A stretch of 64,000 nt of DNA. It comes from Actinomycetospora corticicola (GTDB taxonomy: Bacteria; Actinomycetota; Actinomycetes; Mycobacteriales; Pseudonocardiaceae). The DNA is taken from positions 3,782,001-3,846,000 of the forward strand of contig NZ_JACCBN010000001.1 of the NCBI RefSeq assembly GCF_013409505.1, given 5' to 3'. How positions within the stretch are numbered: position 1 is the stretch's first letter; every line of letters starts with the position of its first letter. The notes below the pieces were generated by a model, which was not told the origin of the DNA, made no database searches, and was given only the letters and a program-made list of their open reading frames with translations. Made by a program: the position numbers and the translations under genes. Positions 1-4,653 of the stretch are shown here, piece after piece.

Positions 1-160
1 TGTCGCCCAGCGAGTCACCGGAGGAGTTCTTCGCGGCGGCCTCGGCGGCGTTCGAGCAGCCCTTGGCGGCGTGGCCCGACTCGTGCGCCGAGGCGATGCC
101 GGCGAGCGAGGCAAGGCCGGTGCCGACGACGGCGGTGGCGATCAGGGTCTTGCGGAACAT
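1..160 (-). CDS. Small secreted C-x31-C family protein, member 1 (partial)
   Basis: Only the N-terminal 53 codons are in the window; the gene runs off the left edge. The start is the ATG at 158-160. The visible protein begins MFRKTLIATAVVGTGLASLA and has a Sec-type signal peptide ending around IASA-HES, followed by GCSNAAEAAAKNSSGDSLGD, which matches the first half of the conserved core in the neighbouring genes (first cysteine, then GDSLGD). It starts only 43 bp downstream of the stop of the next member (204..611), so the two could share a transcript. No known domain is recognised. Function unknown; a secreted, cell-surface role is inferred from the signal peptide. Confidence 0.8.
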   Translation of the reverse strand, partial: MFRKTLIATAVVGTGLASLAGIASAHESGHAAKGCSNAAEAAAKNSSGDSLGD

Positions 161-203
161 GGGTGTCTCCCGGGGAGCGTGAAGGGGCGGGCGGAACGAG
201 AGA

Positions 204-611
204 TCAGCCGAGGCCGCCGAGCAGGCCACCCAGGTCGAGGCCGCCGGCGCCACCGGGGGTCGCGGGCACCGTGGTGTCGGTGGTCTCGGTGTTGGTGTCG
301 GTCGAGGTGCGCGTGATGTCGGTGGTGTCGCCGTTGATGATCGTGCCGGCGGTCGCGACGTTGTTCTTCGACGCGATCTGGTTGCCGTTCAGGATGTCGC
401 AGAGGTTGCTGGCATCGAAGGCCTGGTCGCCGCCGGTCGTGTCGCCCAGCGAGTCACCGGAACCGTTCTCGCTCGCACCCGCGATCGAGTTGGAGCAGCC
501 CTTGGCGGAGTCGGAACCGTGGTGGTCCCACGCGAGCGCCGCACCGGACATCGAGCCGAGGCCGGCCCCGATGATGACGGTGGTGAGAACGGTCTTGCGC
601 AGCATCGACAT
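204..611 (-). CDS. Small secreted C-x31-C family protein, member 2
   Basis: 135 aa. ATG at 609-611 (MSMLRKTVL) was chosen because GGGGGA lies 7 nt upstream, the same spacing as in its paralogues; the open frame continues further upstream but without family similarity. Signal peptide about residues 1-28, ending GAALA before WDHHG. The core has Cys, 31 residues, Cys with the motifs SLGDTTGGDQ and LCDILNGN, then an Asn/Gly-rich stretch (GTIINGDT). The C-terminus is Thr-rich and ends in GGLDLGGLLGGLG, a glycine-leucine tail absent from most siblings. Unknown family. The short, secreted, Asn/Gly-rich, two-cysteine design recalls the chaplin idea of surface-assembling proteins, but I see no chaplin sequence match. 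Confidence 0.88.
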   Translation of the reverse strand: MSMLRKTVLTTVIIGAGLGSMSGAALAWDHHGSDSAKGCSNSIAGASENGSGDSLGDTTGGDQAFDASNLCDILNGNQIASKNNVATAGTIINGDTTDITRTSTDTNTETTDTTVPATPGGAGGLDLGGLLGGLG

Positions 612-718
612 GTGGTATTCCCCCGAATATCGTCGTCGGACGGTGTGCGCCGGTTCCATGCAGTGCATGACGGCCACGTCGCAATCAACGGACGGCCCAT
701 AGGAGGGTCACGGGGAAA

Positions 719-736
719 TCACGACGTTCCCCCGTT
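719..736 (-). promoter_or_regulatory. Conserved upstream element of member 2
   Basis: The 18-mer TCACGACGTTCCCCCGTT (plus-strand reading) lies 107 bp upstream of the start of member 2. An identical 18-mer lies 109 bp upstream of member 5 (2437-2454). In both cases the octamer GGTCACGG precedes it by five variable bases. Position and conservation suggest a shared promoter or operator; which sigma factor or regulator reads it is not known. Confidence 0.45.
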
Positions 737-828
737 CGTGACGCCCCGAGTTTCGGGGCCACACCATCGCAGCAATTCACGACACTATTTCGCGACACCG
801 TGACCTCGATAAACCCGAAAACGACGAC

Positions 829-865
829 GGGCCGGTGCCCACCCTCGCGGGATGGGCACCGGCCC
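829..865 (-). terminator. Terminator hairpin after member 3
   Basis: Perfect 13-bp inverted repeat: gggccggtgccca at 829-841 and tgggcaccggccc at 853-865, with an 11-nt loop. It lies 25 bp past the stop of the gene at 891..1238. There is no long T tract, as is usual in high-GC actinobacteria. Confidence 0.75.
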
Positions 866-890
866 GGTCGGACGCGGTGACGGCGTGGAA

Positions 891-1238
891 TCAGCCGGCG
901 GTCGTGGTGCGGGTGCTCGTGTCCGAGCTCGTGCGCGTGGTGGAGATGTCGGTCGTGTCGCCGTTGACGATCGTCCCGCCGGTGGCGGCGTTGTTGTCGC
1001 TCAGCACCTTGTTGCCGTTGAGGATGTCGCAGGTGTTCGACGCGGACAGGTCCTGCGAGCCCCCGGTGGTGTCCCCCAGGGTGCGGCCCGCACCGTTGCT
1101 GCTCTCGGCGGCGGCGGCGTTGGAGCAGGACTTTCCGGCCTCGCCGTGGCTGCCGTGCGCCATGGCGACACCGGCGGTGGAGGCGAGGCCGGCGCCCAGG
1201 ACGGCGGTGGCGAGAACGGTCTTGCGGAAGACGGACAT
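891..1238 (-). CDS. Small secreted C-x31-C family protein, member 3
   Basis: 115 aa. Starts MSVFRKTVLATAVLGAG at the ATG 1236-1238, with GGGGGA 8 nt upstream. Signal peptide ends near GVAMA; the mature protein begins HGSHGEAGKSC. Core: Cys, 31 residues, Cys, containing TLGDTTGGSQ and TCDILNGN, followed by NNAATGGTIVNGDT and a Ser/Thr-rich tail. It is very close to member 5 (1965..2327), which suggests recent duplication. It has its own strong downstream hairpin (829-865), so it is probably a separate transcription unit. Function unknown. Confidence 0.9.
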   Translation of the reverse strand: MSVFRKTVLATAVLGAGLASTAGVAMAHGSHGEAGKSCSNAAAAESSNGAGRTLGDTTGGSQDLSASNTCDILNGNKVLSDNNAATGGTIVNGDTTDISTTRTSSDTSTRTTTAG

Positions 1239-1398
1239 GAGTGGGATCCCCCGATGCATCGGTTCCTGCGGTCGAGGAGCCCAACGGATGCGGCACCGTT
1301 CTCGACGCGAATTCCCGGGAATGTTCGCCCGAACGGGAACGACGAAACGGCCGACAAACGCGTACGCGAATGCCGGCCGTGGGTCGTCGGAGCGGGGA

Positions 1399-1749
1399 TC
1401 AGTTGAAGGGGAAGCCCGGGCCGAAGAAGGAGTCGAACGTCGTCGTGCGGGTGACGGTGCGGGTGATGGTCGTCTGGTCCCCGTTGCGGATCGTGCCGCC
1501 GGCCGTCGCGGTGTTGTTCCGGCTGCCGATGACGTTGCCGTTCCCGTTGTGGCAGGAGTTCGACACGGAGATGTTCTGGGACCCGCCGGTGACGTCCCCG
1601 AGGGTGCGGCCCACGGAGGTCTTGGAGACCGCCTTGACGGAGTTGGAGCACGAGTTCGACGGCGCGGCGCTCGCGATCCCGGCGGTCGAGGTGATACCCA
1701 CGCCGATCACGGCGGCAGCGATGGCGGCGCGACCGATGACGTTCTTCAT
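1399..1749 (-). CDS. Small secreted C-x31-C family protein, member 4 (divergent)
   Basis: 116 aa. ATG at 1747-1749 (MKNVIGRAAIAAAVIG) with GGGGGAA 8 nt upstream; the frame is open further upstream but that part is unlike the family. Signal peptide ends IASA before APSNSC. It keeps the exact Cys-31-Cys spacing and TLGDVTGGSQ, but after the second Cys reads HNGNGN instead of DILNGN, and the Asn ladder reads RNNTATAGGTIRNGD. The tail ends in FDSFFGPGFPFN, an aromatic, Phe-rich end unique in the array. It also lacks the FRKT signal-peptide start seen in the others, so it is the most diverged short member. Function unknown. Confidence 0.87.
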   Translation of the reverse strand: MKNVIGRAAIAAAVIGVGITSTAGIASAAPSNSCSNSVKAVSKTSVGRTLGDVTGGSQNISVSNSCHNGNGNVIGSRNNTATAGGTIRNGDQTTITRTVTRTTTFDSFFGPGFPFN

Positions 1750-1875
1750 GACGTTTCCCCCTGGATTCTCACCGGCCGCGGGATGCATTCCGGTGTCAGC
1801 AGGGGAATCGGCGCCGGGCGGGCCGATGTCACCGATTCTGCGGCGTATCCGCCGAAAGGGTGACGACATGACGAA

Positions 1876-1946
1876 GGGCCGGACCCTCGCGCAGCTGGGG
1901 AGCCGGGCCCCGGGAATTCCCGGGGCCGTGCGCGTGGGTCCGGCCC
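1876..1946 (-). terminator. Nested hairpin after member 5
   Basis: Outer 11-bp arms gggccggaccc (1876-1886) and gggtccggccc (1936-1946) enclose a second perfect palindrome around gccccgggaattcccggggc. It lies just past the stop of member 5 (1965) and before member 4. Probably a terminator. Confidence 0.65.
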
Positions 1947-1964
1947 GTCGAGGTCGGGGGCGGA

Positions 1965-2327
1965 TCAGCCCAGGAGACCCGTGAGGTCGGTGATGATGGT
2001 GCTCTCCGAGGAGGAGGTGCGGGTGTCGTCGACCGTGGTGGTGTCGCCGTTGACGATCGTGCCACCGGTGGCGGCGTTGTTGCCCGAGAGGACCTCGTTG
2101 CCGTTGAGGATGTCGCAGGTGTTGCTCAGGTCGATGCCCTGGTCCCCACCGGTGGTGTCGCCCAGCGTGCGGTCCGCGCCGTTGCTGTTCTTGGCGGCGG
2201 CGGCGTTGGAGCAGCTCTTGCCGGCGGCCTCGCCGTGGCTGCCGTGCGCCATGGCGACGCCCGCCGTGGAGGCCAGGCCCGCGCCCAGGATGACGGTGGC
2301 GACGGCGGCCTTGCGGAACATCTGCAT
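1965..2327 (-). CDS. Small secreted C-x31-C family protein, member 5
   Basis: 120 aa. ATG 2325-2327 (MQMFRKAAVATVILGAG) with GGGGGA 7 nt upstream. Signal peptide ends GVAMA; mature start HGSHGEAAGKSC. Core Cys-31-Cys with TLGDTTGGDQ, TCDILNGN and NNAATGGTIVNGDT. The tail is acidic and Ser/Thr-rich and ends ITDLTGLLG, resembling the Leu/Gly end of member 2. Closest paralogue is member 3. The same 18-bp upstream element as in member 2 precedes it. Function unknown. Confidence 0.9.
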   Translation of the reverse strand: MQMFRKAAVATVILGAGLASTAGVAMAHGSHGEAAGKSCSNAAAAKNSNGADRTLGDTTGGDQGIDLSNTCDILNGNEVLSGNNAATGGTIVNGDTTTVDDTRTSSSESTIITDLTGLLG

Positions 2328-2436
2328 CTCGGATTCCCCCGAATCACGTGTTTCCCGGTCCGGCGGGAGCTGGTGCTCCGCGCCGTTCGTTCTCGGACCG
2401 CACAACGCGGGGGTGCGAATCGAGGTCACGGCTCCG

Positions 2437-2454
2437 TCACGACGTTCCCCCGTT
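2437..2454 (-). promoter_or_regulatory. Conserved upstream element of member 5
   Basis: Identical to the 18-mer at 719-736, again preceded by GGTCACGG five bases away, and 109 bp upstream of the member 5 start. The sequence just beyond it is unusually AT-rich for this genome (around 2465-2510), as expected near a promoter. Confidence 0.45.
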
Positions 2455-2604
2455 GGTGTTCGACGATTCCGCAAATCTGTTCGGCAATTGTGTTCGACAA
2501 TTGCTGGACACCTTGTTCGCCCGCTCGTGGGCCTGCGGGGCGGGCCTGTGGGGCGGCCGGGATGCATGAGGTGACGTCGGGGCGCGGCGCCGCTGGGCCG
2601 GTTC

Positions 2605-2884
2605 CGCGAGGTGTACGTGGCGCAGGCCTACGGGCGGGCTGAGCTGCCTGGTGTAGACCTCGCGGCGCAGCGCCAGGCGGAGCGGGCCGGGGCCACTCTC
2701 GCGACGCGGGAGCACCCGCCGTCACGACGACAGGTCGCCCGCGCGAGGTGCACGTGACGCAGGTTCCTGGGCCCGCCGGCATGCCTGGTGTAGCCCTCGC
2801 GGTGCGGCGCCGCCCGACCCGTTCCTCGAGATGCACGTGGGGCAGGGTCAGGGGCTGGCCGGGATGCCTGCCGTGACCCTCGCG
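2605..2884. repeat. Three degenerate copies of the 58-bp palindromic repeat
   Basis: The 628-bp gap 2328-2955 has no convincing gene. It holds three diverged copies of a roughly 60-bp unit at about 2605-2663, 2742-2801 and 2825-2884. Each opens with cgcgag or ctcgag, continues with ..gtgcacgtg..gcagg, and closes with ...gcctg....ctcgcg, so each unit is an imperfect inverted repeat. They are related to the cleaner five-copy array at 43719-44161. Confidence 0.6.
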
Positions 2885-2902
2885 TAGGCCCGTGAACGAC
2901 GA

Positions 2903-2936
2903 GACGGCCGGCCCGGAGAGCTCCGGACCGGCCGTC
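2903..2936 (-). terminator. Terminator hairpin after member 6
   Basis: Arms gacggccgg.ccgga and tccgg.ccggccgtc pair across 2903-2936 with a 4-nt loop and one internal mismatch, 20 bp past the stop of the gene at 2956..3414. Confidence 0.7.
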
Positions 2937-2955
2937 GTCGTGCGGAAGGACAGAC

Positions 2956-3414
2956 CTAGCCCTGGATGGGGGTCGAGGTCGTCCCGGCGGGCACCGCGGA
3001 GGTCGTGGCGGCCGGCGCAGCAGCAGCCGGAGCAGCCTGCGCGGGGGCGGCCTGGACCGTCTCGGTCGGCTCGGCGGTCTCGGGCTCCGACGACCCGATG
3101 TTCAGGCTGTTGTTGGAGCCGTTGCCGTTGAGGCTGTTGTTGAGCACGTCGCACAGGATGTTGCCGCCGAGCGCGGCCTGGCTGCCGGTGATGCCGCCGA
3201 TGAGCGTGGCCCCGCCGTTGTGGACGGACCCACCCTGGTTGCTCACGCAGTGGTTGTTCGTCGTGTTGTTGACGGTCTTCGAGTGGCTGCCGTGGTGATC
3301 GCCGTGGTGGTCACCGTGACCCGGGTCGTCACCGGCGAACGCGGCACCCGTCATCGAGCCGAGGCCGGCGCCGACGATCGCCGTCGTGAGGAGCGTCTTG
3401 CGGAACATGGACAT
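2956..3414 (-). CDS. Small secreted C-x31-C family protein, member 6 (subtype B)
   Basis: 152 aa. Starts MSMFRKTLLTTAIVGAG. Signal peptide ends AAFA before GDDPG; a His/Asp-rich segment follows (HGDHHGDHHGSHS, a possible metal-binding stretch). The core has VNNTTNN, then Cys, 31 residues, Cys, with QGGSVHNGG, GITGSQ, and LCDVLNNSLNGN running into an Asn ladder (SNNSLNIG). The Cys spacing equals that of subtype A although the sequence between differs. The C-terminal 45 residues are a Pro/Ala/Thr-rich tail unique to this member, perhaps a wall-spanning or disordered stalk. Function unknown. Confidence 0.88.
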   Translation of the reverse strand: MSMFRKTLLTTAIVGAGLGSMTGAAFAGDDPGHGDHHGDHHGSHSKTVNNTTNNHCVSNQGGSVHNGGATLIGGITGSQAALGGNILCDVLNNSLNGNGSNNSLNIGSSEPETAEPTETVQAAPAQAAPAAAAPAATTSAVPAGTTSTPIQG

Positions 3415-3461
3415 GCGGTGTCCTTCTGCTGATCGCGGGGGGTGTCCATCGCCCGGACGAC

Positions 3462-3495
3462 TGCGGGCCGGAACCGTGGTCGGTTCCGGCCCGCA
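3462..3495 (-). terminator. Terminator hairpin after member 7
   Basis: Perfect 14-bp stem: tgcgggccggaacc (3462-3475) and ggttccggcccgca (3482-3495), with a 6-nt loop. It lies about 100 bp past the stop of member 7 and 48 bp before the start of member 6, so it isolates the two genes. Confidence 0.75.
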
Positions 3496-3598
3496 CGTCG
3501 ACCGGAGATCGGTCAGGCCGTTCCCCGGCCCGGGCTCACGGCGATCGGGGGTCGCCGGAGTCTCGCGGGTCGGTCTGCGGGCCCGGGGTCAAGACCGA

Positions 3599-3934
3599 TC
3601 AGGGGATGATGCTGCCGAGGCCGGCGATGTTGATGCTGTTGTTCGACAGGTTGCCGTTCACGCTGTTGTTCAGCACGTCGCAGAGGACGTTGCCGCCGAT
3701 GGCGCCCTGGCTGCCGGTGATGAGGCCGAGCTGCTTCGAGCCGCCGTTGTCGACGGAGCCACCCTGGCTGTTCACGCAGGTGTTGTTCGTCGTGTTGTTC
3801 GTCGTCGACGAGTGGCTCTTGTGGTGGTGGCCGCTGTCGTGGCTGCAGTCGCTCGCGAAGGCCGCACCCGAGGTGGACGCGAGGCCCGCGCCGATGATGG
3901 CGGTGGTCAGGACGGTCTTACGGAAGGTGGACAC
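3599..3934 (-). CDS. Small secreted C-x31-C family protein, member 7 (subtype B)
   Basis: 111 aa from the GTG at 3932-3934 (VSTFRKTVLTTAIIGAG), with GGGGAG upstream. The open frame extends 28 codons further but that part resembles nothing in the family. Signal peptide ends AAFA before SDCSHDSGHHHKSHS, a His-rich segment with one extra Cys not found in the others. Core: TTNNTTNN, Cys, 31 residues, Cys with QGGSVDNGG, LITGSQ and LCDVLNNSVNGN, then LSNNSINI. It stops soon after (AGLGSIIP) and lacks the Pro/Ala tail of member 6. Function unknown. Confidence 0.87.
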   Translation of the reverse strand: MSTFRKTVLTTAIIGAGLASTSGAAFASDCSHDSGHHHKSHSSTTNNTTNNTCVNSQGGSVDNGGSKQLGLITGSQGAIGGNVLCDVLNNSVNGNLSNNSINIAGLGSIIP

Positions 3935-4257
3935 GCTGGAGTCACTCCCCTGGTCGACGGAACACGCGCGCGACCGGACGGATCGCACACCGTGCGTCAT
4001 GACGCGATCACGCGTCACGACCCGGTGACTTCAACGCCTCGATCGAGTGAAGGTCACGGGCATATTTCGGTCCGGGTGACGAGGAGAGACACGATCGTGT
4101 CCTGAGCAGGGAATCCGTGGCGGATGTTCACCCGCTCGGAGCAATGACACCGCCCATGGCGGCCCCACGACGACGGGCCGGCACCCGGGGAGCGAACTCC
4201 CTCGGGTGCCGGCCCGTGGATCGTGCGGGTCGGCCGCCTGGCGGCGGTCGGACGTGC
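3935..4257. other. Gap between members 7 and 8 with a dyad element
   Basis: No gene is seen in these 323 bp. Around 4021-4060 there is a dyad, cccggtgacttca ... tgaaggtcacggg, about 90-125 bp upstream of member 7 and a plausible regulatory site for it. The member 8 hairpin (4175-4215) is also here. Confidence 0.4.
4175..4215 (-). terminator. Terminator hairpin after member 8
   Basis: 13-bp stem gggccggcacccg (4175-4187) with cgggtgccggccc (4203-4215), 15-nt loop, about 40 bp past the member 8 stop. Confidence 0.75.
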
Positions 4258-4653
4258 TCAGCCCAGCGTCGTCGTCCGGGTCGAGTCGGAGGTGTTGGTG
4301 CTCGTCAGCGACCGGTTCACCGTGTCGCCGTTGACGATCGTGCCCAGCGGCAGCGCGATGTTGTTGTTCGAGAGGATCTCGTTGCCGGTGAGGATGTGGC
4401 ACAGGTTCGAGGCGGACAGGTCCTGGTCGCCCCCGGTGGTGTCGCCCAGCGAACGGCCGGAGCCGTTCTTCGACTGAGCCGCGACCTCGTTGCTGCAGCC
4501 ACCCTTGGCGGACTGGCTCGACGAGTGCTTGTCGTGGCTGCCGTGGTGCCCACCGTCGCCCGGGTCGTCCCCGGCGAACGCGGCACCCGTCATCGAGCCG
4601 AGGCCGGCGCCGATGATCGCCGTCGTCAGTACGGTCTTGCGGAACATCGACAC
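4258..4653 (-). CDS. Small secreted C-x31-C family protein, member 8
   Basis: 131 aa from the GTG at 4651-4653 (VSMFRKTVLTTAIIGAG), with GGGGGA 6 nt upstream; the next in-frame ATG two codons later is an alternative. Signal peptide and the first mature residues (AAFA-GDDPG, then HHGSHDKH) match subtype B member 6, but the core is subtype A: GGCSN, SLGDTTGGDQ, LCHILTGNEIL, GTIVNGDT, with Cys-31-Cys. It therefore looks like a bridge between subtypes, possibly a recombinant. It is the first gene of the array in the direction of transcription. Function unknown. Confidence 0.88.
   Translation of the reverse strand: MSMFRKTVLTTAIIGAGLGSMTGAAFAGDDPGDGGHHGSHDKHSSSQSAKGGCSNEVAAQSKNGSGRSLGDTTGGDQDLSASNLCHILTGNEILSNNNIALPLGTIVNGDTVNRSLTSTNTSDSTRTTTLG

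Follow-up and report, generated by a model that had tools for sequence, protein, structure and literature searches.

The window analysed here is a 64,000-nucleotide stretch of Actinomycetospora DNA, positions 3,782,001 to 3,846,000 of a 6.17-Mb single-contig genome. It opens within a tandem array of nine small genes on the minus strand, named P1 to P9 in transcription order, seven of which are complete inside the window (Table 1). The first-pass annotation had described eight genes on this strand, seven complete and one partial; the description is right for the window itself, the true total being nine. By eye, each product starts with a signal peptide (a basic beginning, followed by a hydrophobic segment and an A-x-A site), as had been proposed for every member, and continues with a linker that is often His-rich, a core containing two Cys residues and a tail. 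Two core subtypes were distinguished, type A in seven genes and type B in two (P2 and P3).

Table 1. Array genes and associated upstream elements. Positions are those of the window unless preceded by L009, a sequence that extends beyond its edge.
Feature	Position	Strand	Remarks
P1	4258..4653	-	type A, 131 aa
P2	3599..3934	-	type B, 111 aa, extra third Cys in linker
P3	2956..3414	-	type B, 152 aa, Ala/Pro-rich tail
P4	1965..2327	-	type A, 120 aa
P5	1399..1749	-	type A, 116 aa, aromatic tail
P6	891..1238	-	type A, 115 aa
P7	204..611	-	type A, 135 aa
P8	1..160	-	type A, truncated by window edge; full gene L009 9810-10160
P9	L009 9289-9645		beyond window edge, after P8
Promoter-like motif before P1	4724..4751	-	CGTGACC-N16-CGTTG
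Promoter-like motif before P2	4032..4058	-	CGTGACC-N15-CGTTG
Promoter-like motif before P4	2403..2430	-	CGTGACC-N16-CGTTG
Promoter-like motif before P7	686..712	-	CGTGACC-N15-CGTTG
Second conserved box before P7	719..741	-	inverted repeat TCACGA-N11-TCGTGA, by eye
Second conserved box before P4	2437..2459	-	one arm degenerate in own genome, by eye

The search of relatives for the same array, which had been suggested as a check, showed seven further Actinomycetospora genomes to carry arrays in the same gene order, so that the array is more than chance. A profile of the mature protein found the array in 8 of 18 genomes of the genus, 3 of the 18 being less than 90% complete. When one genome per species was scanned, seven loci were recovered, all from Actinomycetospora, and a family scan of 200 genomes from 46 genera gave matches only in ten genomes of this genus, five of them through the signal peptide alone. 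Hence the array was not found outside Actinomycetospora in the genomes scanned; a class-wide search with type B was negative in 295 of 296 genomes, a weak result given that at most 15 candidates were scored per genome. The set used in all comparisons below consists of 58 array genes from the eight genomes (9, 9, 9, 8, 8, 6, 5 and 4 genes), the genome with four being 59% complete, with its array at a contig edge.

Both Cys residues are kept in all 58 proteins. They are separated by 31 residues in the seven complete genes of the window, as annotated, and in 9/9 over the whole array; the same spacing is constant among the type A genes of the five closer genomes (33/33), whereas type A of three divergent genomes has 29, 30 or 32 residues in 8/8 genes and the type B positions across the array genomes range from 29 to 32. 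The word "invariant", which had been applied to this spacing, thus suits the window's own array and type A of the closer genomes and does not extend to the genus. (P2 and P3 of A. termitidis look like type A and were counted as B by position.) Two smaller signatures needed adjustment: the T-G after the first Cys reads T-G or V-G at offset 20 in all nine own genes, and C-[DH]-[IV]-L-N at the second Cys is present in seven of the nine, P5 having CHNGNG and P1 CHILTG.

A motif of the form CGTGACC-N15/16-CGTTG was common to the upstream regions, beginning approximately 90-125 bp before the start codon. It preceded P1 in 7 of 8 genomes, P2 and P4 in 8 of 8 each, P7 in 7 of 7 and the one extra P2-like gene (P2x), for a total of 31 of 32 leading genes against a single variant match among the other 26 (P3, P5, P6, P8 and P9). 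All four exact sites in the window lie ahead of array genes, compared to 0.06 expected; the whole genome contained 11 exact sites and the reversed control none. At P4 and P7, the second box TCACGA-N11-TCGTGA stands just upstream of the motif. The P7-P8 gap is short (43-53 bp). Gap lengths and the motif together suggest four putative transcription units, P1, P2-P3, P4-P6 and P7-P9. The exact pattern also recurs in array-less Actinomycetospora genomes, 3-9 times each versus 0-4 times for the reversed control, and single sites therefore mean little. Two further exact CGTGACC-N15-CGTTG sites were noticed upstream of L099 1600-3003, which has matches to molybdopterin-cofactor-binding domains, and of L107 1564-2115, a YkuD L,D-transpeptidase; relatives have similar sites too, so these may mark a small regulon.

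One of the 11 exact sites precedes a response-regulator gene whose neighbours are a WhiB-family gene and an open reading frame that looks groEL-like by eye. Each of 11 genomes of a single genus, all rich in chaplins, has one protein with 52% identity to the regulator; the second-highest scorers reach 39-42%, and the best-matching proteins are identical to one another over their first 40 residues (11/11). Judging from their chaplins and the regulator sequence, we took the genomes to be Streptomyces and the regulator to be BldM. The bldM promoter of the 11 genomes reads CGTAAC-N16-CGTTGA in ten and has CGTTAA in one; CGTAAC-N16-CGTTGA is the sigma-BldN motif reported in PMC2375139, and sigma-BldN drives bldM plus the chaplin and rodlin genes according to PMC4125116 and PMC4255298. 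At the bldM orthologue of the window's own genome the sequence is CGTGAC-N16-CGTTGA. Array promoters differ from the sigma-BldN motif by one base in the -35 box and, in some cases, by one base of spacing. In six other array genomes a site chosen for its resemblance, and so not blindly, precedes bldM in 6/6, the last base of CGTTGA being A in two, T in three and G in one; within Actinomycetospora, the bldM promoters read are those of array genomes.

To compare the genes part by part, each protein was split into an N-terminal part (up to the first Cys), a core (from the first Cys to 23 residues past the second) and a tail, 13 of the 58 proteins lacking a tail long enough for comparison. By a strict count, the nearest relative was the same position in another genome for 54 of 58 N-terminal parts and 37 of 45 tails as opposed to 29 of 58 cores. 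The cores of 23 proteins had their nearest relatives only inside their own genome (13/15 in the divergent clade, 10/43 in the closer one). The signal peptide of P4 is identical over 27 residues in all four other closer genomes. Mean identity of type B cores was 0.65 within a genome, 0.37 at the same position in the same clade and 0.30 in the other clade, the corresponding values for type B N-terminal parts being 0.54, 0.64 and 0.58. For type A, cores gave 0.61, 0.71 and 0.39 and N-terminal parts 0.40, 0.76 and 0.53; here homogenisation of the cores is visible between clades and weak inside the closer clade. When genome labels were shuffled within positions, none of 1000 shuffles reached the core values, for either type. 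In type A the N-terminal part lay just above its highest shuffle (0.403 versus 0.399), and the tail too exceeded its own (0.274 versus 0.258); the type B N-terminal part did not, 56 of 1000 shuffles reaching it. These sequence comparisons indicate that the cores tend to evolve in concert within genomes, an effect most evident for type B and for the divergent clade.

Gene conversion is part of the mechanism, since silent sites show the same trend. Four-fold sites were alike within a genome at 117/164 in type B cores against 108/194 in the N-terminal parts (Fisher p 0.003), at 88/129 against 48/90 in type A of the divergent clade (p 0.03) and at 931/1569 against 675/1228 in type A of the closer clade (p 0.02), the p values being rough as the pairs are not independent. 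Conversion between tandem neighbours might even be all that makes the cores alike, with the products, as secreted developmental proteins, acting singly, for example as a metal-binding or protective matrix through their linkers, and forming no joint polymer. The silent sites, and for the metal or matrix role the frequent His residues of the linkers, speak for this explanation. We nevertheless consider it unlikely: exchange stops at either end of the core, where signal peptides and tails keep the identity of their position, and this is easier to account for by selection on the core than by conversion alone. A core that is exchanged and stays similar within a genome, flanked by ends that do neither, would be expected if the cores make contact in a joint polymer.

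Divergence of the cores between genomes, far greater than that of the signal peptides (type B cores fall to the values given above even at the same position), could also be the mark of a recognition or competition system, in which pheromone-, adhesin- or bacteriocin-like secreted proteins change fast against partners, rivals or phages and hold one identity per genome. We find this less convincing still, as nothing next to the array looks like a receptor, immunity or processing gene, and up to nine copies under developmental-type promoters suit a structural product better. The neighbourhood contains only an upp-like gene (named by eye), an alpha/beta-hydrolase gene and, between these two and next to the array, one convergent gene of the MDMPI/DinB type. 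The interval from upp to the hydrolase gene spans 3,914-6,516 bp in the seven array genomes that show the two flanks; among array-less congeners it measures 22-91 bp in all eight that show them, two further ones being unreadable there. In a tree of four flanking proteins the eight array genomes form one clade with a support of 1.000. The array block has been acquired a single time, or else lost a single time in the sister lineage.

Chaplins, the PF03777 proteins of Streptomyces, are likewise small, secreted, multicopy, Gly/Asn-rich proteins with two Cys residues and a developmental setting. Rodlins (RdlA/B) are small secreted sheath proteins, also with two Cys, and it is in these descriptive features that they resemble the array proteins. 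Chaplins are under the control of sigma-BldN in Streptomyces (PMC4125116, PMC4255298), and so are rodlins (PMC4125116). The array might therefore be thought to hold strongly diverged members of one of these families, given the same functional setting, a similar length, the Cys pair and a developmental-type promoter. Against this, PF03777 gave no match in the own genome while scoring positive in 30 of 148 genomes of the class as a control, and the comparison of the type A and chaplin profiles yielded 0.4%. In addition, chaplin domains have their Cys 17 residues apart in 19/19 (V-N-[VI]-C-G-N ... N-P-A-x-G-N-x-C), compared to 29-32 in the 58 array proteins. Array proteins are hydrophilic where chaplin domains are hydrophobic: the mean grand average of hydropathy was -0.51 for mature parts after residue 27 (58 proteins) and -0.22 for cores (58), versus +0.26 for chaplin domains (19). 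Finally, long chaplins have a sortase sorting signal, whereas L[PA]xTG is absent from 58/58 array proteins. Membership in the chaplins is ruled out by the family model, profile, Cys spacing and hydropathy; the idea of a diverged chaplin is refuted as far as sequence allows, and descent from either family seems very improbable to us.

No other known family came to light, in agreement with the original statement that none could be named. The seven window proteins had no near-cut-off match in Pfam or NCBIfam, three array proteins out of three had none in PHROGs, and the array profile had none in PDB. On a possible phage or plasmid origin, besides the PHROGs result, the one protein tried against plasmid sequences gave no match, nor was a tRNA found in the 18 kb around the array. 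A match of one gene to NCBIfam MAP_0585 (E 0.00089, 19.4 bits against a cut-off of 170) was dismissed as due to chance, two true members of that family being Pro/Gln-rich. The curli major subunit CsgA is a hydrophilic, Asn/Gly-rich, secreted structural protein. It consists of several short repeats, in contrast to the single two-Cys module of the array proteins, and no curlin family match was found among Pfam hits up to E 10 for the seven window proteins. A search of the literature on chaplins and rodlins, on spores and aerial growth of Actinomycetospora, on Pseudonocardiaceae surfaces and on concerted evolution yielded no paper on such proteins, and a sigma-E paper (PMC6767563) added nothing useful.

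Related genes occur elsewhere in the genome. A second tandem array (L062 7653-9382, at 4.39 Mb) encodes four small two-Cys proteins related to type B, with 36 residues between the Cys in 4/4, and the sequence GGTCAC-N17-CGTTGA precedes two of the four genes. The profiles of types A and B matched at 96.7%, a value that leans partly on three second-array proteins included in profile B; type A against the second array alone gave 11%, and the 99.6% of type B against the second array is circular for the same reason. Four dispersed genes (L038 1827-2141, L039 1117-1425, L040 1421-1729 and L041 876-1232) combine a similar signal peptide with the core PxNxCNNxVPVNxxGxQxPxQD...SC; one pair of this type is present in each of five array-less genomes. 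These are possibly remote chaplin- or rodlin-like proteins: their match to the chaplin profile was just 77% over 12 columns, and the two tested had no Pfam hit. Two long secreted-looking proteins without Cys (L010 5293-6612 and 6936-8429, at 2.75 Mb) contain a type A-like stretch, after which come Thr- or Asp/Ser-rich repeats. A CGT[GA]AC-type pattern was not found before the four dispersed genes, their ten counterparts in array-less genomes or the long Cys-free paralogues.

Three further observations concern the DNA of the array region. The P3-P4 intergenic region (2577-2884) holds three diverged copies of an 88-nt unit that recurs genome-wide; by a hand recount, this interval and its edge account for 41 of the 55 DNA matches that the array region gave when 40 of 772 candidates were scored, and the unit is an intergenic interspersed repeat. 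The P8-P9 gap (L009 9646-9809; counterparts in L011, L012 and L014) contains, by eye, GC-rich hairpin-like sequence in three relatives, perhaps an attenuator. Lastly, the MDMPI/DinB-type gene (L009 8568-9251), convergent with P9, has matches of at least 66% identity in seven of the eight array genomes and in no array-less one.

A type A-like stretch also occurs in five long paralogues (439-507 aa), none of which has any Cys. The two residues are thus jointly present (58/58 array proteins) or jointly absent (5/5), which fits a disulfide and lends indirect support to a shared disulfide-linked fold. AlphaFold2 runs with the mature type A proteins (33 sequences) and with the cores (41 sequences) predicted no strands and gave mean values of 50.4 and 47.6 for the predicted local distance difference test; this low confidence would reflect either disorder before assembly or alignments that are too shallow. 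The earlier suggestion of a functional amyloid, in the manner of chaplins assembling at air-water interfaces, gains nothing from either run.

We postulate that the products of the array are small secreted structural proteins whose genes are turned on during aerial development. From the likeness of the motifs, sigma-BldN would read the array promoters. After export the two Cys would form a disulfide, and the core would serve as a shared assembly module, the copies of which must stay matched, while position-specific tails would give every subunit a role of its own. Subunits would then assemble with one another in the extracellular space, giving a sheath or matrix that lies on aerial hyphae or spores. 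Such a product would work like the chaplin/rodlin layer and yet belong to a different family, hydrophilic and lineage-specific. On balance we think it probable, if by no means strongly so, that the array represents a developmentally switched family of co-assembling coat proteins, chaplin-like in working and not chaplins. The earlier suggestion of a surface layer analogous to chaplins gains indirect and independent support from the sigma-BldN-type promoter shared with bldM and from the concerted cores.

Several results weigh against this interpretation. Ten of the 18 Actinomycetospora genomes do without the array, and among the five closer genomes type A cores still mostly track position. Neither AlphaFold2 run produced a confident fold. 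The hydrophilic character of the proteins speaks against a chaplin-like surfactant. In A. chiangmaiensis the exact pattern was not found at the bldM promoter. Of 15 chaplin genes in the loci examined, just one had the promoter pattern tested (background 0.75%); eight looser patterns did no better than 3/15, for CGTTGA alone and at about background, and a pattern picked post hoc, after some of the sequences had been viewed (4/15, background 1.6%), was given no weight.

A more specific version, which we offer tentatively and regard as somewhat doubtful, would have the array supply one clade's own coat for its aerial hyphae or spores. Up to nine Asn/Gly cores of non-chaplin origin, hydrophilic and each closed by a disulfide, would make up this hetero-polymer; its genes would have been recruited into the old BldN-BldM programme and would travel as a single block flanked by two housekeeping genes. 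The cores would drift together in each species, and the coat would become species-locked, polymerising best with its own kind.

The array bears on how mycelial actinomycetes other than Streptomyces cover their aerial hyphae and spores. PF03777 detects no chaplin in 118 of the 148 genomes sampled from the class, although many of these organisms may form no aerial hyphae. The array offers one specific candidate: a new family whose promoter sequence links it to the conserved switch for aerial growth, with array-less sister species as natural controls. Moreover, the combination of position-specific signal peptides and tails with genome-specific cores may constitute a sequence-only sign of co-assembling protein families that could be sought elsewhere.

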